Of a DNA stretch of 37,581 nucleotides, positions 14,919 to 36,093 are shown piece by piece. Origin of the DNA: an uncultured Lachnospiraceae bacterium (GTDB lineage Bacteria > Bacillota > Clostridia > Lachnospirales > Lachnospiraceae); contig CALWPC010000050.1 of the NCBI GenBank assembly GCA_944383325.1, positions 124,235 through 161,815 of the forward strand. The letters are read 5' to 3'. The notes under the pieces were generated by a model that did not search any database, was not told where the DNA came from, and worked only from the letters and a program-made list of their open reading frames with translations. Both the position numbers and the translations under genes were made by a program. The first letter of the stretch is position 1. Each line of letters begins with the position of its first letter.

Positions 14919-14947
14919 TTACTAGGTGCTGTGCTTTATGCTATAAT
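14919..14947 (+). promoter_or_regulatory. Extended -10 promoter of the ABC exporter operon
   Basis: TGCTATAAT (14939-14947) is a perfect extended -10. The -35 (TTACTA, 14919-14924) is poor. The 15-mer CTTTATGCTATAATA recurs exactly at the DUF5685 promoter. Confidence 0.65.
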
Positions 14948-14978
14948 AGAACGAATAAATGCGAAGGAGGCGTATGTC

Positions 14979-15683
14979 ATGAGCGCATTCGTGGAAGTCA
15001 GAGACGTCACTAAAGTTTATCATATGGGTGAAGTGGATATTCATGCGGTAGACGGCATGGATTTTGAAATTGAGCAGGGGGAGTTTGTTGTCGTGGTCGG
15101 TCCTTCGGGGGCAGGAAAGACGACGATATTAAATATTTTGGGCGGTATGGACAGCTGTACGTCAGGAAGCGTGATCATTGACGAGACGGATATTTCCGCC
15201 TTTGACGAGCATCAGCTTGCCGGGTATCGCCGCGATGATATTGGGTTTGTATTCCAGTTTTATAATCTGATCGGGAATCTGACCGCTCTTGAAAATGTTG
15301 AGCTTGCCCTTCAGATTTGCAAAGACCCTCTGGATGCGGTTGAAATTATGCGCGAAGTCGGCCTGGAGGAGCGCATGGACAATTTTCCGGCGCAGTTATC
15401 GGGAGGAGAGCAGCAGCGTGTGGCGATTGCGCGCGCGCTTGCCAAAAATCCAAAACTGCTGTTGTGCGATGAGCCGACGGGGGCGCTAGACTATCAGACC
15501 GGAAAATCAATTTTGAAGCTTTTGCAGGATACCTGCCGCGAAAAAAATAAAACGGTCATTGTGATCACACATAACCAGGCGCTCACGCCGATGGCAGATC
15601 GTGTAATTCATGTAAAAAACGGCCGGGTGAGCGAAATGACGGTCAACCGCAATCCGGTATCCATTGAGAGCATTGAGTGGTAA
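14979..15683 (+). CDS. ABC transporter ATP-binding protein (MacB/LolD type)
   Basis: ATPase of 234 residues that powers the large permease encoded next. Walker A GPSGAGKT is at about 41-48, the signature [15 protein letters not shown] near 139, Walker [13 protein letters not shown] near 160 and the switch histidine in VIVITHN. The short length, without a fused domain, is typical of the LolD/MacB/FtsE group that drives mechanotransmission rather than classical transport. ATG 14979 follows AGGAGG by 8 bases; an ATG at 14974 stops at once. The gene is 15 bases from the permease start. Confidence 0.93.
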
Positions 15684-15698
15684 GGAGCAGATAGACAA

Positions 15699-18600
15699 AT
15701 GAATTCAAATATGTTGGTTGTTGATTTTTTTATGGAAATCAGGAAAAACGTCACCCGGTTTTTGTCACTTCTCCTGATTGTGGCATTGGGCGTTGCGTTT
15801 TATTCGGGTATCCGTGCGGCGGAGCCGGACATGCAGCTCTCGGCGGACGCGCTTTATGACGATAGCCGGTTTATGGATATACGGATTGTCAGCACGCTCG
15901 GATTTACTTCGGAAGATGTGTTGGCGGTACAGGATTTAAAGGGTGTGGAGGCTGCAGAGGGATTTTATTCTGCAGACGTGCTTTGCGATGGGGAAGAAGA
16001 ACAGTTTGTTTTGCATCTGATGAGCGGAAGCGAGACAATGAATCAGTGCACGGTCAGCGAGGGCCGTCTTCCGGAGCGGCCGAGCGAGTGTCTGATCGAT
16101 GAATTGCTGGCCGAGCGTGCCGGTTTCAAAGTCGGAGACAAGCTTACGGTCTCTTCAGGAACCGGTGATGATATTATGGATACGCTCAATGTCAAGGAAT
16201 ACACGATTGTCGGGATCGGAGGACATCCGTCCTATATTTCCAGAGAACGCGGCACAAGCGCCGTCGGGGACGGATCGGTAGACGGTTTTGTTATTTTGGA
16301 TCCGATGGCCTTTTCTTTGACGGCATATACGGAAATTGACGTGCTTGTTGACCGCGCGGATATGTTGACATCATTTTCCTCTGAATATGAGGACGCGGTG
16401 CAGGTCGTGGCGGACCGCATCGAGGAAATCCAGGAGACGCGCAGTACGCTTCGTTATGACAGCGTGAAGGAGACTGCGGAGGCAGAACTTACGAAGGCGG
16501 AAACGGATCTTGTCGCGGCGGAACAGGAACTGACGGATTCCAGAACCAGACTGGAGCAGGCGGAGGCGGAGCTTGCACAGGCAAAAGCAGAGATTGAATT
16601 GAAAATTCAGGAGGTCATGTCCGGTCACACAACGATTGCGGAGCAGGAGGCGGCTCTGGCGGAGTCTACCACAAAACTTGCGCAGGCGAAAGCGGAGCTT
16701 GATGCGACAATGCTCGATCTGTCCGCGAAACAGCAGCAGCTGAATGTGGGAAAAGCGCAGTTGGATGCCAGTCGGGCAGAGCTTACGGACGCTTACAGCG
16801 AGTGGACGGATCAGAATAATGAGATTGTATCAAGATGGAATATGCTTGAACAGGCGGAGGCAAAATTACAGGAACAAAGAGAGACCCTAGAATCGAAAAA
16901 GGCGCAGCTTGAAGAACTGCTTGGCCAACAGGTCAGCATTCATGTGGAGCAGGCGGTATATGCGTCTTCTGCAGAAGGTGTGGTTTCACAGTCGTCGACG
17001 GATGGGGCGGCAGAGAATCCGGGTAATGTGGAGCCGACCGGTGATCCTGGGTTTGCAACAGAGATACCGCAGGCTACGCCGGAACCCACAGAAGGCCCGA
17101 CGTCGTCTCCGGTGGAGTCCGAACCGGCGCCGACGCCGACCGAACCGGTTGGCACCGACGATACGCAGCCGCCGTCCCAGGTGGATACGGCGCAGCTTGA
17201 ACAGGAAATAGCACAGCTTGAGTCTGATATTGCATCGCGGGAGAGCGAATTGTCTGCTCAGAGAAGTCAGCTTGAGGAGGCGACAAACGCGCTCAATTCT
17301 ACAAAATCTCAGCTTGATCAGCTCAATGCGCAGCTAGAGAATGAGGTGGCGCTGTATAATGCCTCCGTACAGGAACTGTCTCTTGCCTCTGCGCAGCTTG
17401 TATTGGGGGAGGCGGAATACAATAAGCAGAAAGCGACGTTGGATGCAGGTTTGCAGGCGCTGAATGTGGCAAAGCAGGCGCTTGAAAACGGACAGACAAC
17501 GATCTCCGATTCCCAGCTGCAGATTGCAGGTGCGGAACAGGAGCTTTTGCAGGGCAAACAAAATTACGAGGCTGCTGTGCAGGAGAGCGAACAGAAACTG
17601 AAGGATGCGCGCGAGGAGCTCAATGATAAAAAGCGTGAAGTTGCAAAAATGAGCGTGCCAAAGTGGTATATTCTCGACCGCAGCTACACAGAGTCCTGTG
17701 AGGGATTTCGCCAGGATTCGGAGAGAGTCGGAGCGATCGGCACGGTTTTCCCTTTGATCTTTTTTATTGTGGCCGCACTGGTCAGTCTGACAACCATCAC
17801 GAGAATGGTGGAGGAACAGCGCACGCAGATTGGTACGATGAAGGCGCTTGGTTTTGAAAAACACGTCATTGCCGGCAAATATATCTGCTATGCGATTGCA
17901 GCGAGTCTGATCGGCGGGGTACTTGGATTAGTGCTCGGACAGTTGATCTTGCCAAGAGTGATCATTAACGCTTATAAGATTTTATATACCGGAATTCCAA
18001 AAGCGATTACTCCGCTGAATTTCTGGTATTCGATCAGTTCCCTGGTTGTGGCTGTGGCGTGCACGGCAGTTGCCGCGTTTTTTGCCTGCTATCGGGAATT
18101 AAGAGCGGTTCCGGCCGAGCTGATCCGTCCGGTTGCGCCGAAAAACGGAAGACGGGTCATGTTAGAGCGTGTTCCGCTGATCTGGAAGCATCTGAATTTT
18201 TCGCAGAAGGCCGCGGTGCGCAATATGTTTCGGTATAAAAAGCGGTTTTTTATGACTTTGTTTGGCATTGCCGGCTGCATGGGCCTGCTGCTCGTCGGCT
18301 TCGGCGTGCGCGACAGTGTGATGAGTGTCGCAGACAAACAGTTTGGAGAGCTGACGGATTACACGGCCAGTCTGACGCTTGAGACAACGGATCTTGCGCC
18401 GGTGCGCACATTGGAATCCGCACTGGAACAGGATGAACGTGTGGAAAATCATTTGTCAGTGTATTCTGCGGCGCTGAGCGCGGAACTGGAAAACTCGGAG
18501 GAGAGCGTGTACCTTGTCGTGCCGGAAAACGGGGAGGCGCTAAGCGATTATATTACCCTGCGAAACCGCAGAGGCGGCAAATCGTTGAAATTGGAAGACG

Positions 18601-19334
18601 ACGGCGTCATTATTTCTGAAAAGCTTTCTGCCATTCTTGGCGTTAAGGCCGGTGACCTGATTACACTTGTGGATAATGACAATTACCACGTCGAGGTGAA
18701 GGTGTCCGGAATTACAGAAAATTATTTCCAGCATTATGTCTATATGTCGCCGGCTTATTATGACACGATTTACGGAGGCGAACCGGACTACAATACCATT
18801 TATGTAAAAAACAGCAGTCTTGATGAGGAAGAAATGCAGGAATTTCTGACAGACTGCAACGAATATGAGGCCGTTGGATCGGTAACCGATATTCAGAATT
18901 ATATTGATTCTATTCATGATATGTTAAAGAGTATGAATATGGTTGTGGTGGTATTGATTGTTTCGGCGGGATTGTTGGCGTTTGTTGTTTTATATAATCT
19001 GAATAACATTGCCATCACTGAGCGCAGGCGCGAACTGGCAAGCCTTAAAGTGCTCGGCTTTTATGACCGGGATGTGACGGTCTATGTGCTCCGTGAGAAT
19101 TTTATGATGGTATGTATCGGCATTCTCGGAGGGATTGTCGTCGGCGTGATTTTGCATCAGTTTGTCATCCGCACAGTCGAGGTTGATATGATGATGTTCG
19201 GACGCAGTATCTACTGGCAGAGCTATCTGTTCAGTATTTTGCTGACGATTGTTTTTGCTGTTGCCGTCAATATCATTATGCATTGGAAATTGAAAAAAAT
19301 TGATATGGTTGAATCATTAAAGAGTGTGGAATAA
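15699..19334 (+). CDS. FtsX/MacB-type ABC permease with giant coiled-coil insert
   Basis: Membrane protein of 1211 residues. A first membrane helix lies at about 17-37, then an extracytoplasmic MacB-like region (about 40-250). Two long coiled coils (about 255-405 and 495-650, rich in Ala, Glu, Gln and Leu) are separated by a Pro/Thr/Ser-rich linker at about 443-494. Helices at about 680-703, 728-755 and 775-800 form the first FtsX domain. A second single helix (850-870), another outer domain, and helices at about 1081-1105, 1132-1155 and 1174-1197 follow. The architecture fits a type VII ABC system that couples cytoplasmic ATP hydrolysis to work outside the membrane, such as peptide or lipid extrusion, stress sensing or cell-wall control. 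TAAGGAG precedes the ATG. The substrate is unknown. Confidence 0.9.
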   Translation: MNSNMLVVDFFMEIRKNVTRFLSLLLIVALGVAFYSGIRAAEPDMQLSADALYDDSRFMDIRIVSTLGFTSEDVLAVQDLKGVEAAEGFYSADVLCDGEEEQFVLHLMSGSETMNQCTVSEGRLPERPSECLIDELLAERAGFKVGDKLTVSSGTGDDIMDTLNVKEYTIVGIGGHPSYISRERGTSAVGDGSVDGFVILDPMAFSLTAYTEIDVLVDRADMLTSFSSEYEDAVQVVADRIEEIQETRSTLRYDSVKETAEAELTKAETDLVAAEQELTDSRTRLEQAEAELAQAKAEIELKIQEVMSGHTTIAEQEAALAESTTKLAQAKAELDATMLDLSAKQQQLNVGKAQLDASRAELTDAYSEWTDQNNEIVSRWNMLEQAEAKLQEQRETLESKKAQLEELLGQQVSIHVEQAVYASSAEGVVSQSSTDGAAENPGNVEPTGDPGFATEIPQATPEPTEGPTSSPVESEPAPTPTEPVGTDDTQPPSQVDTAQLEQEIAQLESDIASRESELSAQRSQLEEATNALNSTKSQLDQLNAQLENEVALYNASVQELSLASAQLVLGEAEYNKQKATLDAGLQALNVAKQALENGQTTISDSQLQIAGAEQELLQGKQNYEAAVQESEQKLKDAREELNDKKREVAKMSVPKWYILDRSYTESCEGFRQDSERVGAIGTVFPLIFFIVAALVSLTTITRMVEEQRTQIGTMKALGFEKHVIAGKYICYAIAASLIGGVLGLVLGQLILPRVIINAYKILYTGIPKAITPLNFWYSISSLVVAVACTAVAAFFACYRELRAVPAELIRPVAPKNGRRVMLERVPLIWKHLNFSQKAAVRNMFRYKKRFFMTLFGIAGCMGLLLVGFGVRDSVMSVADKQFGELTDYTASLTLETTDLAPVRTLESALEQDERVENHLSVYSAALSAELENSEESVYLVVPENGEALSDYITLRNRRGGKSLKLEDDGVIISEKLSAILGVKAGDLITLVDNDNYHVEVKVSGITENYFQHYVYMSPAYYDTIYGGEPDYNTIYVKNSSLDEEEMQEFLTDCNEYEAVGSVTDIQNYIDSIHDMLKSMNMVVVVLIVSAGLLAFVVLYNLNNIAITERRRELASLKVLGFYDRDVTVYVLRENFMMVCIGILGGIVVGVILHQFVIRTVEVDMMMFGRSIYWQSYLFSILLTIVFAVAVNIIMHWKLKKIDMVESLKSVE

Positions 19335-23534: not shown

Positions 23535-24512
23535 ATGTACTACTATTTAAAAAGATGTGGTTTTCAGGAATTGGGAAGTGTCGGGGAAGACGGGGTCGTG
23601 CATCGGGGACGGTATTTGCTGACAACGATGGACGATCGCGTACTGCGTATCTTCCCTGCGCTTTCGACTACGCAGAAAAATGACGCCGCACTATTGGCGG
23701 TTTTGCCTTTGTATTCAGGGAAAAAGGTATATTGCAATTTTGTTTATCACAATGATAAGTTTCATCATTCTACAGCGAGGCATCCAAGAAACGAATACAG
23801 GCTGTATTTAAATCAGGAACTGGAAGAAGGCAGGCTGCTGTTTGAACAGGGCGATATTATGATTATGCGTCAGGCGCAGATCGAAGAAGAGGACGGTCCT
23901 CAGATTGTCTATGTGATGGATTTGGTCAAGCCGTCAGCCGGCGCGTTTTATGCCGAGTGCAGCCAGATTATAGAGGACTCTCCGCTTCCGAAAAATTATG
24001 GGATTTATGAGGGCGACCTTGCTGCGTTTGAGGAACAGGTGCGGTCGCTGCCCAATGCCGGGGAGACTGAGGTGGCTATCGACCGAACCGTGATGAGACA
24101 AATTTCGGCGATCGATCCGTCCGCAGTTGCCAGACTGTTTAGCGCCTCATCGTTTCGGGATTTTGTGCTCGTGGGGTATAATTACCGGTGCGGCATTACC
24201 GGTATGGTGATACGCAGCGGGGCATACAATAATCTGGAGGCTGCGCATATCCGTCCAAAGAGCCACGGTGGTTCGTTTTTGCCGAGCAATGGAATTGCGA
24301 TGTGCAGAGATTTGCACTGGGCGTTTGACAAGGGGTTTTTTACGTTCAGCGATGATCTGAAGGTGATCGTGCATCCGCAAGCGGACAGCGATTATCTGCG
24401 CCAGTTTGACGGCCAGTCGCTGCGGGTTCCGGACAATGTGTTTTTCGCGCCGGATCCGGAGCAGATTCAGTATCACAGAGAACATATTTACGGAATATTT
24501 ACAAGGAATTAA
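23535..24512 (+). CDS. HNH restriction endonuclease
   Basis: Protein of 325 residues. The C-terminal half holds an HNH nuclease domain (about 213-275): a YRCGITG start, LEAAHIRPKSHGG with the first catalytic histidine near 237, an Asn near 252 in NGIAMC, and a histidine near 261 in LHWAFDKG. The N-terminal half has segments such as RNEYRLYLNQELEEGRLLFEQ that could be a B3-like sequence-specific DNA-binding domain, as in EcoRII-type enzymes; that part is inference. Followed 30 bases later by two cytosine-C5 methyltransferases, so it is the cleaving component of a type II restriction-modification system. AGAAGGTG precedes ATG 23535. The target sequence cannot be told from the sequence. Confidence 0.88.
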   Translation: MYYYLKRCGFQELGSVGEDGVVHRGRYLLTTMDDRVLRIFPALSTTQKNDAALLAVLPLYSGKKVYCNFVYHNDKFHHSTARHPRNEYRLYLNQELEEGRLLFEQGDIMIMRQAQIEEEDGPQIVYVMDLVKPSAGAFYAECSQIIEDSPLPKNYGIYEGDLAAFEEQVRSLPNAGETEVAIDRTVMRQISAIDPSAVARLFSASSFRDFVLVGYNYRCGITGMVIRSGAYNNLEAAHIRPKSHGGSFLPSNGIAMCRDLHWAFDKGFFTFSDDLKVIVHPQADSDYLRQFDGQSLRVPDNVFFAPDPEQIQYHREHIYGIFTRN

Positions 24513-24542
24513 ACAACAGGTTGTACAGGGAGACGATATGTT

Positions 24543-25625
24543 ATGAATGCGGTTGATCTGTTCGCCGGCTGCGGCGGGTTATCAAAAGGTTTTATAGATG
24601 CGGGCTATCAGGTGTTGCTTGGCGTTGACAATGACGAGGCGGCGCTGAAAACATTTGCATTGAATCATCCCGGAGCGACGCCGGTGAATGCTGATTTGTC
24701 TGATGAGGACGAGCTTGAGCGCCTGATCGGCCTTGCGTCTGAACAGTCTGTTGATGTCGTGATTGCGGGGCCGCCGTGTCAGGGGTTTTCGCTCACCGGT
24801 CCAAGACATTTTGATGACGACCGTAACCGGCTGTACCTGGCTGTGTTTCGGATGGTCAAAGCGCTGCGGCCAAAGGCTTTGGTAATTGAGAATGTACCGG
24901 GAATGTCGACATTGTATAATGGACAGATTCAGGCGGAAATTTTGCGAAGATTTCGAAAACTTGGGTATCATATAGACAGCAAAATATTATGTGCTGCCGA
25001 TTTCGGAGTCCCGCAGATGAGAAAAAGACTCATTTTCATCGGAATCCGGGAGGACATTGGACCGGTGTCATTTCCGGCCGAGCTCGTCACACCGGAGCAC
25101 TATGTTACGTGCAGAGAGGCCATTTCAGATTTGCCGTCCAGAGCAGAAGAGATTGGTGAGGAAGTAGACGTGTACACGCATGATCCGATTACGGATTATC
25201 AGAAAAAAATGCGCGCAAATAATACGGTATTATATAATCACGTGGCAACCAGACATACAAAAATGGTTCAGGATACGATTGCGCTCGTGCCGGAGGGCGG
25301 AAATTATAAAGATTTGCCGCGCGGGGTTGGAGAGAGCAGAAAATTTCATGAGGCGTGGACGAGGTACGACGGCAATAAACCGTCAAGGACGATTGACACC
25401 GGCCATCGCAATCATTTTCATTATGAGTATAATCGCGTGCCTACTGTTCGCGAAAATGCGCGTTTGCAGTCGTTTCCCGACTCGTTTGTTTTCTGCGGGA
25501 CAAGAACCCAGCAAAACCGGCAGGTGGGCAATGCAGTTCCGCCGTTACTCGGCTATGCGATTGCCAGACATTTGCGTACACTGATTGGAGAAAAGGATCA
25601 TGAGCAAAAAAATCCAGATGATTGA
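24543..25625 (+). CDS. DNA cytosine-C5 methyltransferase 1
   Basis: Modification enzyme of 360 residues with all main C5-methyltransferase motifs: I DLFAGCGG (5-12), IV GPPCQGFS with the catalytic Cys79, VI ENVPG (116-120), VIII QMRKR (158-162), IX RENARLQSFPD and X QVGNAVPP. The target-recognition region lies between VIII and IX, about 175-305. AGGGAGA precedes ATG 24543. Placed between the HNH nuclease and a second C5 enzyme that it overlaps by 26 bases, so all three are one operon. Self-protection of the host DNA is the likely role. Confidence 0.95.
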   Translation: MNAVDLFAGCGGLSKGFIDAGYQVLLGVDNDEAALKTFALNHPGATPVNADLSDEDELERLIGLASEQSVDVVIAGPPCQGFSLTGPRHFDDDRNRLYLAVFRMVKALRPKALVIENVPGMSTLYNGQIQAEILRRFRKLGYHIDSKILCAADFGVPQMRKRLIFIGIREDIGPVSFPAELVTPEHYVTCREAISDLPSRAEEIGEEVDVYTHDPITDYQKKMRANNTVLYNHVATRHTKMVQDTIALVPEGGNYKDLPRGVGESRKFHEAWTRYDGNKPSRTIDTGHRNHFHYEYNRVPTVRENARLQSFPDSFVFCGTRTQQNRQVGNAVPPLLGYAIARHLRTLIGEKDHEQKNPDD

Positions 25626-26844
25626 TTTATTTGCCGGCTGCGGCGGATTGACGGAAGGCTTTGAGCAGTCCGGGCATTACCGGACGCTCGCCTGTGTTGA
25701 ATGGGAGGAGGCTCCCTGCCGGAATCTTCGCCATCGTCTGGGTCACAAGTGGCATTACCAGACATCGGATGAAATGGTGCTGCAGTTTGATATTCAAAGG
25801 ACAACGGAGCTGTTAAACGGTTGGGATGATAAAAAGTACGGCGTCTCAAGAGGCCTGGACGATTGTGTGAGAAAGCGGGGCGGCAGGGTGGATCTGATTA
25901 TCGGGGGACCGCCCTGTCAGGCGTATTCGATTGCCGGACGAATCAGAGATGAACATGGCATGCGGAATGACTACCGCAATTATCTGTTTGAAAGTTATAT
26001 AAAAATCGTACAGCATTATCAGCCAAAGGCGGTAGTGTTTGAAAATGTGCCGGGTATGCTGAGCGCCCGGCCCGGAGACGGAAGTCGTCTGGCGGTCGAT
26101 ATGGTCATGGAGGAGTTTGATAAGGCCGGATATGCGTGTATCAGTGATTTTAAGCGGGCGGTGATTGAGTTTGCGCAGTATGGTGTGCCGCAGTACCGAA
26201 AACGTGTGATTTTGCTAGGGCTTCGGAAGGATCAATTTCGTGCGCAGGATACGGATGAGATTCTAAACAAATTTTATGAGGAAATTTTGCCGTCTCATCA
26301 GTCCGATCAGGTCAAAACGGCGGGAGAGGCCATGGCAGGTTTGGAGCCTTTGTATCCGCTGCCGGAATGTACCAAGAAAAAGGGGAGGAAACAGTCCCAT
26401 AGCTTTCCGGAAGATGATACGATCAAAAATCATCTTCCGAGATATTGCAATCCGAGAGATATGCAGATTTTCAAACTTCTTGCAAATGACCGGGCGTGCG
26501 GAGCAAACCGCTATGCATCCGCGCAGGCTTTGAAGGAGCTTTATACAAGTATTACTGGAAGAGTGTCCAATGTGCACAAGTATCACGTGATCAGTCCGGA
26601 GGAACCGAGCAATACGGTGCCTGCGCACTTATATAAAGACGGGCTGCGCCATATTCATCCTGATCCGGAGCAGCAGAGAAGTATTACTGTGCGCGAGGCC
26701 GCCCGGCTGCAGACGTTTCCGGATGATTATAAATTTTTGTCGGGAATGTCGGATAATTATAAAATGATTGGAAATGCAGTGCCGCCTTTGTTTGCGCGGA
26801 TTTTAGGGGAAAGTGTGTATGAGCTGTTGTCCCGGTACGGATAA
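25600..26844 (+). CDS. DNA cytosine-C5 methyltransferase 2
   Basis: Second C5 enzyme, 414 residues, only distantly like the first. Motif I is DLFAGCGG, IV GGPPCQAYS with Cys106, VI ENVPG near 150, VIII QYRKRVILLG, IX REAARLQTFPD and X MIGNAVPP. It has an extra stretch between motifs I and IV and a longer recognition region. ATG 25600 follows GGAG by 9 bases and overlaps the upstream gene; a TTG at 25585 is less likely. Two different C5 methyltransferases with one nuclease usually means an asymmetric site, one enzyme per strand, or that each strand has a separate methylated base. Confidence 0.94.
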   Translation: MSKKIQMIDLFAGCGGLTEGFEQSGHYRTLACVEWEEAPCRNLRHRLGHKWHYQTSDEMVLQFDIQRTTELLNGWDDKKYGVSRGLDDCVRKRGGRVDLIIGGPPCQAYSIAGRIRDEHGMRNDYRNYLFESYIKIVQHYQPKAVVFENVPGMLSARPGDGSRLAVDMVMEEFDKAGYACISDFKRAVIEFAQYGVPQYRKRVILLGLRKDQFRAQDTDEILNKFYEEILPSHQSDQVKTAGEAMAGLEPLYPLPECTKKKGRKQSHSFPEDDTIKNHLPRYCNPRDMQIFKLLANDRACGANRYASAQALKELYTSITGRVSNVHKYHVISPEEPSNTVPAHLYKDGLRHIHPDPEQQRSITVREAARLQTFPDDYKFLSGMSDNYKMIGNAVPPLFARILGESVYELLSRYG

Positions 26845-30659: not shown

Positions 30660-30700
30660 AATCTGGATTTTGCAAAAAAATGATGGAAGAAAGGAAAAGC

Positions 30701-31552
30701 ATGTTTGGCCATGTGACAATCCATAAACCGGAATTAAAAGTCAGGGATTATGAGCGTTACCGAAGCTATTACTGCGGTCTGTGCCGCACGCTCGGCAAAC
30801 GGTACGGCATTACCGGAAAATTGCTTTTAAGCTATGATATGACATTTTTGGCCATATTATTTAGCGGACTGTATGAGCTTGAGGGATCGGGCGAGCGGAT
30901 GATCTGTCTGCTGCACCCGACGCGCCGGCAAACCGGTCTGTGTAATCCGGCTACGGAATATGCTGCGGATATGACAATGCTGCTGACCTATCATAAACTT
31001 CTGGATGACTGGGAGGATGATCGCCGGCTGACGGCATTGTTTACTAGCCGGTGGTTTCTGTGTCGCTATCGGAGAGTGCGGGCAGAATATCCGAGGCAGT
31101 GCGCCGCCGTTGAAGATGGAATGCACAGTCTTTCACAGGCGGAACGCCGCGGGGAGACATCTGCGGATGTCGTATCCGGTCTGTTTGGATCGATTCTGTC
31201 GGAAATCTTTGTCTGGCATGAAGATGAATGGTCGGATACGCTTAGGGAAATCGGTTTTTATCTCGGAAAATATATTTATTTGGCGGACGCCTATGTGGAT
31301 ATGGAGGAAGACCGGAAAAACCGCAGCTATAATCCGCTGTGGATATGGTATCAATCTCGAACGGAAGAAGAGTTTCATCATTTTTGCGAGCAGCAGTTCA
31401 ATCTCATTATGTCCGTATGCGCGCGCGCGTTTGAGCGCCTCCCCATTTTGCAGGAGGCGGGGCTGCTCCGAAATATTCTATATGCAGGTGTCTGGACGCG
31501 CTTTTATCAGGCGAGAAACAAACGGATGGAGGAAACGCATGGATCCATATAA
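30701..31552 (+). CDS. DUF5685 family protein, prenyltransferase-like pattern
   Basis: Protein of 283 residues with a DUF5685 N-terminus ([18 protein letters not shown], then YYCGLC). Function is unknown. The helical protein has two Asp-rich motifs: LLDDWEDD (101-107) and DAYVDMEED (196-204), the latter with the D-x3-D-x3-D spacing of squalene/phytoene synthases. ATG 30701 behind AAGAAAGGA is chosen over the ATG at 30680. CxxC is at 25-28. The last 14 bases overlap the dnaJ-like gene, so the two are translationally coupled. Whether it binds a prenyl diphosphate or is only a relic of that fold cannot be settled by eye. Confidence 0.82.
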
Positions 31553-32198
31553 AGTGTTAGGGGTTGACCCGGGGGCAACGGATGAGGAAGTGAAAAAAGC
31601 ATATCGAAAACTGAGCCGCAAGTATCATCCTGATGCCAATGTCAATAGCCCTCATCCGGAGGTGGCGGAAGAAAAATTTAAGCAGGTGCAGATGGCCTAT
31701 GAACAGATTATGCGGATCAGAGAGGGCCGCGAAGGCTATGGAGAAACCGGCGGCGGGTACGGTGGCTTTGGAGGCTTTGGAGGATTCGGCGGTTTTGGTG
31801 GTTTTGGTCAGGGGGCGAGCGGGCAGTCAGGGACGTCCGAGCAGGATATTCATTTACAGGCCGCCACTAATTATATCAATTCCGGCCACTATCAGGAGGC
31901 AATTAATGTTCTGAACCGTATGGACAACCGTTCTGCAAGATGGTATTACGTGCACGCGGCGGCAAACGCGGGATTGGGCAATACGAGCATGGCAATGGAT
32001 TCTGCAAAACGCGCTGTGGAGATGGAACCCAATAATGCGGAGTACCAGATGCTCTATCAAAGGCTGCAGGGAGGCGGCGGTTGGTATCAGAGCATGGGCG
32101 GAGGATACGGCCGTCAGAATATGGATATGGGTAATTTTTGCTGTGAGTTGATGCTTTGTAATATGTTGTGCAATGGCTGCTGCTGTGACTGTGCGTGA
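31539..32198 (+). CDS. DnaJ-domain protein with GGF repeats and Cys-rich tail
   Basis: Co-chaperone-like protein of 219 residues. The J domain occupies about 1-70, with the HPD motif at 30-32, which stimulates DnaK. A Gly/Phe linker with five GGF repeats (about 75-90) follows. Then come two helical tetratricopeptide-like repeats ([30 protein letters not shown]). The C-terminus is unusual: it ends [19 protein letters not shown], eight or more cysteines in 19 residues. No zinc-finger domain of classic DnaJ is present. ATG 31539 has GGAGGAAA upstream and overlaps DUF5685 by 14 bases. Coupling suggests it works with the DUF5685 protein. Confidence 0.88.
31761..31805 (+). repeat. GGF-coding tandem repeat in the DnaJ-like gene
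   Basis: Five consecutive 9-base units (GGN-GGN-TTY) encode Gly-Gly-Phe in the linker. Synonymous differences show they are not a recent perfect duplication. Confidence 0.9.
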
Positions 32199-33451: not shown

Positions 33452-33520
33452 GGATGAAGCAAAAATAATAATAAATCAAGCTGTTTGATGGATTTTAAAC
33501 AAAATATTAAAAAATATCAA

Positions 33521-33538
33521 TAAAAATGATTAATTTTA
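33521..33538. promoter_or_regulatory. Imperfect inverted repeat upstream of the leuA-AraC gene
   Basis: TAAAAAT-GATT-AATTTTA (6 of 7 pairs) lies within a run of A and T tracts (about 33495-33557) upstream of the promoter. It could be an UP element or a binding site for the AraC-type domain. Confidence 0.3.
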
Positions 33539-33562
33539 TCACTGTTCGAAAGAAAAATCTTA

Positions 33563-33571
33563 TGGTATGAT
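33563..33571 (+). promoter_or_regulatory. Extended -10 promoter of the leuA-AraC gene
   Basis: TGGTATGAT is an extended -10 with TATGAT at 33566-33571. No good -35 is seen at 17 bases, which fits dependence on an activator. The start codon lies about 38 bases downstream. Confidence 0.45.
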
Positions 33572-33609
33572 TGCGTCAGATGAAAGAGTAATCATTGTTG
33601 GAGGTTGCC

Positions 33610-35601
33610 ATGAAAAATTTTGAAAAATATACAAAACAGTATTTTATGCCACCCGAGCCATGTTATGACTGGGTGCAAAAGGATTCGATAGAAAAGCCGC
33701 CTATTTGGTGCAGCGTAGATTTGCGCGACGGAAATCAGGCGTTAATTGAACCGATGAGCCTGGAACAAAAAATTACATTTTTCGAGATGTTGGTAAAGAT
33801 CGGATTTAAGGAGATCGAAGTGGGATTTCCGGCGGCGTCTGAAACAGAATATAATTTTTTGCGGGCGCTTATTGACCGCAATATGATTCCGCAGGATGTG
33901 ACGATCCAGGTGCTTACGCAGGCGCGGGAGCATATTATCCGGAAGACCTTCGAAGCGGTGAAGGGCGCTCCGCACGCGGTCATTCATCTTTACAATTCCA
34001 CCTCGGTAGCGCAGCGCGAGCAGGTGTTCAAAAAGAGTAAGGAAGAAATCAAACAGATTGCGGTGGACGGAGCAGAATTGCTCAAGCGTTTGGCTGATGA
34101 GACAGACGGTAATTTTTCGTTTCAGTATAGCCCGGAAAGTTTTCCGGGAACGGAAGTCGATTACGCGTTGGAAGTGTGCAATGCGGTTTTGGACGTATGG
34201 AAGCCATCTGCGGCTAATAAGGCGATTATCAATCTGCCCGCGACAGTGGAAAACGCAATGCCGCATGTGTTTGCTTCTCAGGTAGAATATATGAGCAAGC
34301 ATTTAAAGTACCGGGATCATGTGATTCTCTGTCTGCATCCTCATAATGACCGGGGAAGCGGTGTGTGCGACGCGGAGCTTGGAGTTTTGGCAGGGGCGCA
34401 GCGAATTGAGGGAACACTGTTTGGAAACGGTGAGCGGACCGGCAACGTGGATATTATCACACTGGCGATGAATATGTTTTCTCACGGCGTTGATCCGAAG
34501 CTTGACTTTTCCAATATGCCGGAAATTTGCAAGACGTACGAGGAACTTACCGGAATGCGCGTGTATGAGCGTCAGCCTTATGCGGGAGAGCTTGTGTTTA
34601 CCGCTTTTTCCGGGTCTCATCAGGATGCGATTGCCAAAGGAATGGCGTGGCGTGAAGAAAAGCAGTGCGAGTACTGGACGGTTCCGTATCTTCCGATTGA
34701 TCCGAAAGACGTCGGGCGGGAGTATGAGTCTGATGTGATACGTATCAACAGTCAGTCCGGCAAAGGCGGAGTCAGCTATATCTTAAAACAGAATTTCGGA
34801 ATGTCGATTCCGGACAAAATGAAAGAAGAAGTTGGCTATACAGTCAAAGGGGTGTCCGACAGGGAGCATAAAGAATTGTCTCCTGCCTGGATTTATCAGA
34901 TTTTTGAGGATAAATATATTTTAAATACCCCCAATTTCACCATTCCGGAATGTCATTTTAAACAGACAGACGGTATGGTTGCAGAGGTGACTATTGCGCA
35001 TGCGGGCGAGACCCGTGTTGTCACGGCGAATGGAAACGGGCGTATCGATGCGGTGAGCAATGCGGTAAAACAATATTTTAATGTCAGCTATGAACTTTCG
35101 GTTTATGAGGAGCATGCGCTGACCGAGGGGTCGTCCTCAAAGGCGGTTGCCTATGTGGGTATTTGCTGCCAGGGGAACATGCACTGGGGCGTGGGTATCC
35201 ATGAAGATATTATTCAGGCGTCGATTCATGCGCTTGAGGTGGCGGCCAATCAGCTAGAGGCCATCCGGTCTATGAGCGAGAGTCGTGACAGGCGGCTCAA
35301 CGATATTTTAAACTTTATTTCTGTAAATTACCGGACGGTGACACTGGAGGATTTGTCGGCGGAATTTTTCCTCTCCAAGCCGTATCTGTCGAAGTATATT
35401 AAAGAAAAGTCAGGGATGACATTCGGCGAGCTTGTCAAGAAAGTGCGGATGAAAAAAGCGCGCACCTTGTTGAAAAGCGGAGGTATGACGGTGGAGGCGG
35501 TCGCAGAATCGGTCGGCTATCAGAATGTGGAGCATTTTACGCGGCTGTTCAAAAAGAGGTACGGCATGTCGCCGGTGCAGTTTAAAAATCAGAAAAAGTG
35601 A
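33610..35601 (+). CDS. leuA: 2-isopropylmalate synthase fused to an AraC-type DNA-binding domain
   Basis: First committed enzyme of leucine synthesis (acetyl-CoA plus 2-oxoisovalerate), here with an unusual tail. Residues 1-about 554 are a complete LeuA of the ~560-residue class: [15 protein letters not shown] with the catalytic Arg-Asp pair, HPHNDRG metal ligands, [11 protein letters not shown], then the C-terminal leucine-binding regulatory domain ending near [20 protein letters not shown]. Residues about 555-663 are a full AraC/XylS double helix-turn-helix: [21 protein letters not shown] (582-602) and [22 protein letters not shown] (631-652), then MSPVQFK. The frame is continuous. ATG 33610 behind GGAGG is chosen over TTG 33595. 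An internal ATG (35272), with AGAGG 11 bases before it, could also yield the DNA-binding part alone. The product may sense leucine and act on DNA. Confidence 0.93.
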
Positions 35602-35613
35602 CGGGACATTTCC

Positions 35614-36093
35614 ATGGCCAGGGAATTAAAAACCAATGTAATGCGAATATTAGAGAAGAATCAAATTTCATATGAAGCGCTGCATTACGCGTGCGATCAG
35701 TTTATAGACGGCGTTCATGTGGCGGACCAGACCGGTACGCCGCATGAACAGTCTTTTAAGACGTTGGTCGCGCGGGGGAAAAGCGGCGCGTTTTATGTTT
35801 TTGTGCTGCCGGTTGAGCAGGAGGTCGACTTGAAAAAAGCGGCGCGCGTTTGCGGCGAAAAGTCTGTCGCGCTGCTGCATGTGCGGGAGCTGACCGCAGT
35901 GACCGGTTATATGCGCGGAGGATGCAGCCCGGTCGGGATGAAAAAACAGTTTCCGACTTTTTATGAGAAGTCGGCGGCTGAATTTCAGGAAATTTATATA
36001 AGCGGCGGAAGGGTTGGCCTGACGCTCAAAGTCCGTACAGACGCGCTGCTTTTCGTGACCGCCGGCCAGTATGCGGATTTTGCGGCAGTTTGA
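35614..36093 (+). CDS. ybaK: YbaK/EbsC-type Cys-tRNA deacylase
   Basis: Editing protein of 159 residues that hydrolyses Cys-tRNA(Pro) or related mischarged tRNA in trans. The motif TGYMRGGCSPVGMKK, and GVHVADQTGTPHEQSFKTL near the N-terminus, are typical of the YbaK branch. The start, ATG 35614, is 12 bases after the LeuA-AraC stop, with a weak ribosome site (GGGA), so it is probably read from the same transcript. No functional tie to leucine synthesis is evident. Confidence 0.92.
   Translation: MARELKTNVMRILEKNQISYEALHYACDQFIDGVHVADQTGTPHEQSFKTLVARGKSGAFYVFVLPVEQEVDLKKAARVCGEKSVALLHVRELTAVTGYMRGGCSPVGMKKQFPTFYEKSAAEFQEIYISGGRVGLTLKVRTDALLFVTAGQYADFAAV

Follow-up and report, generated by a model that had tools for sequence, protein, structure and literature searches.

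Why should an enzyme of leucine biosynthesis end in a DNA-binding domain, and does this domain read a site of its own? The question is raised by a leuA gene of an uncultured Lachnospiraceae bacterium (assembly GCA_944383325.1, contig CALWPC010000050.1), located in a stretch of 37,581 nucleotides that was analyzed as a whole and is referred to below as the window. A first, sequence-only reading had proposed that a complete 2-isopropylmalate synthase (IPMS, LeuA) runs into a complete AraC-type double helix-turn-helix (HTH), and that the allosteric leucine site may be a sensor reporting to transcription.

Domain Architecture of the Fused Protein

The fusion gene starts with an ATG at 33610, preceded by a ribosome-binding GGAGG at 33600, and its stop codon ends at 35601; the listed frame starts instead at an upstream TTG, giving 668 aa. 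The gene, its domains and its downstream neighbor are as follows.

33610..35601, + strand: leuA-araC fusion gene, 663 aa, with its own ATG; full length in 80/80 of the best 80 of 564 relatives
33703..34527, + strand: catalytic barrel, HMGL-like, residues 32-306 (Pfam PF00682); aligned with Mycobacterium tuberculosis IPMS (MtIPMS, 1sr9)
34588..34788, + strand: IPMS post-catalytic domain, residues 327-393 (PF22615)
34876..35256, + strand: leucine-binding regulatory domain (LeuA_dimer), residues 423-549 (PF08502)
35257..35289, + strand: short variable linker, about residues 550-560, from low conservation over 550-581 and a helix gap in the AF2 model
35290..35589, + strand: AraC-type DNA-binding domain, with HTH_18 at residues 582-660 (PF12833, PF00165)
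35614..36093, + strand: YbaK-type Cys-tRNA(Pro) deacylase gene (TIGR00011, over its cut-off)

The proposed succession of a complete LeuA and a complete AraC double HTH in one frame is borne out, all Pfam domains being found in the single 663-aa protein: HMGL-like (E 5.4e-68), IPMS_D2 (E 4.3e-35) and LeuA_dimer (E 2.3e-23), then HTH_18 (E 2.1e-21, profile positions 1-79 of 80) and HTH_AraC (E 2.9e-13), the last two over the gathering score. The curated LeuA model NF002991 gives 803.5 bits against a cut-off of 455 and is matched from 3 to 549 of its 550 positions. As far as its sequence can tell, this is an enzyme and a DNA-binding domain in a single protein, in the layout of a trigger enzyme. 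A stop or frameshift was looked for near 35260-35280, at the junction, and the frame was found open in the window as in all 80 of the best-scoring relatives.

In the AF2 model, the AraC-type domain consists of seven helices, from H561-572 to H655-659, with a pLDDT of 79-90 in ten-residue blocks from 561 to 660. Helices stop at residue 553 and start again at 561, which leaves a linker of about 11 residues. The post-catalytic domain is modelled badly (pLDDT <50 at 321-344 and 354-384) and, since the overall pTM is 0.51, the placement of the domains is left out of the argument.

Regarding the enzyme, D40, H243, H245 and H337 (H337 lying after the barrel) are invariant in an alignment of 30 fused proteins and align with D81, H285, H287 and H379 of MtIPMS, which we take to be metal-binding or catalytic. 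Also invariant across 30 fused proteins are G475-N476-G477 and Y499 in the leucine domain. Y360 of the fusion aligns with Tyr410 of the M. tuberculosis enzyme, whose Tyr-to-Phe mutant is leucine-insensitive (PMC10464499). By homology search, no second LeuA is found in the window's genome (2.0 Mb, 98% complete), where the other six matches are five AraC-type paralogues (23-33% over the HTH) and one match of 28% over residues 242-344.

The YbaK-type gene starts 12 bp 3' of the fusion gene and is possibly co-transcribed with it. Elsewhere, the window has what looks like a restriction-modification cassette (23535-26844), made up of a gene for an HNH endonuclease (23535-24512) and, after it, two overlapping genes for C5-cytosine methylases (24543-25625 and 25585-26844). 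A DUF5685 gene (30680-31552) overlaps a DnaJ-domain frame (31110-32198) on the same strand in a different frame; the DnaJ domain starts only near residue 145, so that the listed start of its frame is probably too early. An ABC ATPase gene (14931-15683) precedes a 1211-aa FtsX/MacB-type permease (15699-19334).

Occurrence and Conservation of the Fusion

The sequence-only reading had also asked how often the fusion occurs. Among genome contigs, the best 80 of 564 relatives are all one-frame, full-length fusions of 658-668 aa, the ranking being one that favors full-length matches and hence fusions; they span many Lachnospiraceae genera, together with Sporomusa and Pelosinus. In an evenly drawn sample of the family, LeuA is fused to its end in 24/109 genomes having a LeuA match (120 searched, window's genome included); one further genome (G061) has an HTH frame that adjoins LeuA. 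Across a phylum sample, the fusion is found in 4/191 genomes, again with the window's genome included. LeuA frames of 945-976 aa were considered as other fusions and rejected: in the three examined, the LeuA frame comes to a stop before a second one begins.

Neither part appears decayed, as had been proposed. In addition to the invariant residues of the enzyme, pN/pS over 8 independent pairs is 0.032 for the HTH, 0.031 for the catalytic domain and 0.056 for the leucine-binding domain, i.e., purifying selection on the HTH is as strong as on the catalytic domain. The second recognition region of the HTH, its recognition-helix block, is highly conserved.

Genes commonly found beside fused leuA are scpA/scpB/dacF-like genes on the 5' side and, in some cases, a decarboxylase-like cluster on the 3' side (labels assigned by eye). 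An operon logic was set aside, as these common neighbors are not leucine genes; fused leuA therefore usually lies apart from leuBCD.

Gain, Loss and Transfer of the DNA-Binding Domain

A tree of 77 rows was built by a quick method from the LeuA part alone. All 39 HTH-bearing rows fall inside one clade (SH-aLRT 98), whose 44 rows include five nested ones without the HTH, and the presence of the HTH requires at least six changes on the best tree. A single apparent gain of the HTH followed by about five losses is the simplest reading. Support is weak for many inner branches, the well-supported (starred) branches alone forcing four changes of the label "fused," and change counts by themselves cannot separate gain from loss.

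In two relatives, from genomes G061 and G078, LeuA reaches a stop and the HTH follows at once in another frame. At the first (L088, G061:C54), the HTH frame may have its own start codon and ribosome-binding site, as judged by eye, and the putative operator described below is kept, so that LeuA and the DNA-binding domain may be made as two proteins. At the second (L092, G078:C6), eight consecutive A precede the shift of frame between LeuA and HTH, which may mark a slippage site, decay or an error of assembly.

Next to the window's gene, the tree places those of Sporomusa and Pelosinus (SH-aLRT 85), a grouping suggestive of transfer from one class to another. At both of these Sporomusaceae loci (L008, L010), the fused gene, a T-box and the operator are all present, and the module has apparently moved as a whole.

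A Conserved Putative Operator Upstream of Fused leuA Genes

Upstream regions of fused genes share a motif of about 40 bp, TTAAAATAnATCAAnnnAAnTGATTAAnTTnnCACT, with the core ATCAA-N6-TGATT. As an operator, it can be described about equally well as a dyad or as a direct repeat; for the repeat, 22 bp is the best shift and falls between the 95th and 99th percentile of column shuffles. AraC/XylS regulators bind direct-repeat half sites spaced by about two helical turns and overlapping -35; with its end at -35, the operator's position would fit this. The predicted elements in the window's promoter are the following.

33504..33543, + strand: predicted operator O1 (55.6 bits by PWM), at predicted positions -74 to -35; left half TTAAAAAATATCAA, dyad ATCAATAAAAATGATT at 33516-33531, right half ATCACT
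33561..33571, + strand: extended -10 element TATGGTATGAT, at exactly +45 counted from the dyad's first base

Transcription is predicted to start near 33578. Another dyad-like stretch, ATCAAGCTGTTTGATG (33475..33490, + strand), lies 41 bp 5' of O1; this one-mismatch regex match scores only -5.7 with the matrix and is probably due to chance.

The extended -10 consensus, TATGnTAnnAT, stands at +45 from the first core base. It is found at exactly this distance with at least 7 of 8 bases in 63/68 sites, and is the best match nearby in 60. Training sites were picked partly by the -10, one locus (L083) being dropped, so that its spacing is independent evidence only at the 22 T-box loci and three leuCD sites considered below. 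With regard to the -35 region, no site has a good hexamer: the best matches to TTGACA comprise 4 of 6 bases (15 sites), 3 (43 sites) or 2 (10 sites), and none of the 68 reaches 5. Random sequence gives 5 or 6 in about 1% and 4 in 12%; with 15/68, the sites are slightly better than random in the latter class, not worse. Counted from the predicted start, the element covers about -74 to -35, where a class II activator would sit. A fixed distance between operator and -10, associated with the lack of a good -35, would resemble an AraC-activated promoter with its activator in class II position.

A second operator copy scoring >0 is found downstream of the first in 38/65 leaders (58%), compared with 0.3% of shuffles; many of the 38 belong to related genera. 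It is spaced by 73 bp (23 leaders), 74 bp (10), 75 bp (3) or 63 bp (2), 73-75 and 63 bp being close to seven or six helical turns, and it would cover about -1 to +38. Such helical phasing hints at DNA looping. Neither the window's promoter nor any of the three at leuCD has a second copy.

The Putative Operator Accompanies the DNA-Binding Domain

Using a matrix built from 52 distinct sites, an operator of >20 bits is found within 1.5 kb upstream in 77/81 fused leuA genes. The four others are a locus with only 47 nt upstream (L057), two with weak in-place sites (L012, 8.5; L063, 8.6) and one with a shifted version of the operator, scoring 17.1 bits by profile (L077). When similar sites are left out of training, all 77 sites are still the best position, and resampled upstream regions exceed 5 bits once in 770. 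In L080 (operator at -1043) and L082 (at -1349), operator and leuA are separated by another gene-length frame, of 273 or 263 codons, which would make leuA the second gene of the transcription unit.

The T-box offers an independent set of loci. By pattern, a T-box core lies 5' of leuA in 26/32 HTH-less close relatives (within 350 nt) and in 22/81 fused genes. Rfam confirms the T-box (RF00230) in 10/14 loci submitted, with a specifier read as CUC, leucine, in four alignments; searching the window gave no Rfam T-box match at the gathering score for its leuA. Among the 22 fused T-box loci, none of them in training, the operator is found 270-474 bp upstream of the T-box core in all 22, with the -10 at +45 in 20. 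In one relative without the HTH (L091, 2322-2485, - strand), a Clostridiales-1 sRNA (RF01699) is located between T-box and leuA.

Matrix scores separate the rows of the tree set, ten of which are in training: none of the 32 rows without the HTH exceeds -1.8, and the 39 with it all reach about 5 or higher. Raising the threshold to 10 excludes three rows that have the HTH (L012, L143, L146). Each of the about five nested HTH losses is without the operator. The two split-frame genomes both have a site, strong in one (35.7) and weak in G078 (13.6). A pattern scan of 350 nt likewise gives the motif at 14/20 fused genes and at both split ones, compared with 0/32 HTH-less close relatives and 0/6 distant genes. 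The independent pairs on starred branches all agree at the lowest threshold, their number (n=3) being too small for p <0.05.

Genome-Wide Sites and Other Targets

In a profile scan of the window's genome, O1 is the only site above 20 bits, with 39.1, the next reaching 14.4. Over 29 HTH-bearing genomes, the best site is the promoter of the genome's own leuA in 25, with at least 19.6 bits in 22 and noise-level scores of 16.8-17.5 bits in the remaining three (G022, G077, G098). The best site of G261 is at leuCD, leuA coming third. In G005, G062 and G078, the own leuA is not among the matches listed by the profile scan, which scores up to 150 candidates per genome and may miss weak sites; the matrix gives 5.0, 8.7 and 13.6 there, respectively. 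For 25 genomes reached via named loci, 16 of which are in training, the own promoter is best by coordinates in 24 and leuCD in one. No site above 17.1 bits is found genome-wide in 29 HTH-less relatives.

Operators at leuC-leuD, none of them in training, are found in G261 and in two Butyrivibrio genomes (31.1, 32.6 and 32.9 bits). They have the same -10, at +45 or +46, and LeuC and LeuD at these loci pass the equivalog cut-offs. A broad regulon was rejected, as the operator occurs at only 1/30 leuC loci, that of G261, across 28 HTH-bearing genomes (the further leuC copies of some genomes being left out), the two Butyrivibrio genomes having come from another scan. The leuC of the window's genome and, counting it, of 27/28 HTH-bearing genomes is without the operator. 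A 21.8-bit site of G091 between ilvBN and a branched-chain aminotransferase gene, reversed and with an altered spacer, is a possible target. Further sites above 20 bits, in G047:C11 and G261:C15, have neighbor genes without a clear link to leucine.

Proposed Mechanism and Alternative Readings

The combination of the HTH with a matching operator at its own promoter makes it very probable that the enzyme also controls pathway genes. The preferred reading, highly likely as judged from sequence comparison, is that of a trigger enzyme, i.e., an IPMS whose AraC domain would bind the operator and thereby set transcription of leuA and, in some lineages, of leuCD. For this part, the original proposal is strongly supported by the co-occurrence of HTH and operator at the own promoter, and at leuCD in three genomes. 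That the HTH is the reader of the operator seems close to certain. Leucine as the signal, the other part of the proposal, is suggested by the intact leucine domain and by the targets and is likely, though it stays at that level. Activation instead of repression, to which the class II position points, is favored more cautiously.

According to this proposal, the AraC domain would bind the operator next to the weak -35 region of the fusion gene's promoter and, in some lineages, of the leuCD promoter, so that the enzyme's own state would determine how strongly the first steps of the leucine branch are transcribed. At low leucine, the fusion would activate its own promoter; leucine filling the regulatory domain would stop activation, inhibiting the enzyme and releasing or rearranging the DNA-bound dimer, with lower transcription as the result. 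In known IPMS, the leucine-binding domain is dimeric. In T-box lineages, the same gene would be under a second control reading the charging of tRNA-Leu. A more elaborate version can be put forward only tentatively: where a second operator exists, one leucine-binding event might both stop catalysis and shift the oligomer from the activating half sites of O1 into a loop between O1 and O2 (73 bp, seven turns), the operator module spreading with the gene and being recruited to leuCD in some lineages. The same conformational change would then set enzyme activity and gene expression together.

Among the alternatives, the HTH could be mainly an autorepressor, with leucine-bound protein on O1 and O2 blocking transcription and the free DNA active by default. 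The second copy does occupy a roadblock or loop position in many promoters, but neither the class II activator position of O1 nor the absence of any site with a good -35 hexamer fits such a role, and the promoter of the window and those at the three leuCD loci have no second copy; we consider it unlikely. Less probable again is a fusion that still reads the operator and responds not to leucine but to substrate supply (2-ketoisovalerate, acetyl-CoA) or to an active-site product. Catalytic residues are indeed conserved as well as the leucine site, and trigger enzymes such as PutA answer to their substrate (PMC8249747). However, the HTH directly follows the leucine-binding domain after a linker of only about 11 residues, and the co-occurring T-box, with its CUC specifier in four alignments, reads leucine tRNA.

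It is very improbable that a different transcription factor reads the motif, the HTH having an unrelated or purely structural role. Such a reading could draw on the near-palindrome in the motif, where a plain direct repeat would be expected of an AraC-type regulator, but the motif disappears together with the HTH in each of about five nested losses, precedes the gene in Sporomusa and Pelosinus after the apparent transfer, and has no strong site anywhere in the 29 genomes without HTH. Lastly, a decaying passenger or assembly artefact, which the two out-of-frame relatives and the several losses might recall, is extremely improbable as a general account, given that the best 80 of 564 relatives are all intact and that the HTH, with its conserved recognition-helix block, is under strong purifying selection.

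Relation to Known Systems

With its barrel, post-catalytic and leucine domains likewise complete, the enzyme part of the fusion belongs with LeuA of the PRK03739/MtIPMS class, the M. tuberculosis structure 1sr9 being the closest solved one. The LeuA family models and 1sr9 stop after the regulatory domain, whereas the fusion adds about 100 DNA-binding residues. With AraC of E. coli and the AraC/XylS family, it shares the seven-helix double HTH of about 100 residues and an operator beside the promoter. AraC senses through an arabinose domain; in contrast, the sensing part of the fusion is a whole biosynthetic enzyme, and its operator also has a dyad. AraC loops between araI1 and araO2 (PMC4760080), and the phased second operator of many relatives recalls this araI1/araI2/araO2 arrangement.

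Enzymes with DNA-binding domains are already known. PMC8249747 names five trigger enzymes of E. coli (PutA, BirA, NadR, PepA, and PyrH), LeuA not being among these five. Like them, the fusion would be an enzyme with a DNA-binding domain that controls its own pathway, and just as PutA binds next to putA, the fusion has one clear site at its own gene in most genomes scanned. It differs from the five in being a biosynthetic enzyme for leucine with an AraC domain, and in a promoter that looks activated, not repressed. Unlike the Leu T-box (RF00230), also found before leuA, which is RNA-based and reads tRNA charging, the fusion would exert control by a protein. A literature search, in which coverage of subscription journals was thin, found no description of a LeuA-AraC fusion; its dedicated operator is new here.

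Significance

Since operator and promoter are both defined, direct testing is possible. The fusion raises the question of how an allosteric end-product site that evolved for catalytic inhibition could come to govern DNA binding. The repeated exchange and overlap with the T-box provide a natural series for comparing RNA-based with protein-based control of one gene. If the preferred reading is true, a major family of gut bacteria would have a feedback-inhibited biosynthetic enzyme that doubles as the transcription factor of its own gene; this would provide a regulator of leucine genes for the Lachnospiraceae and a candidate part for a leucine biosensor.
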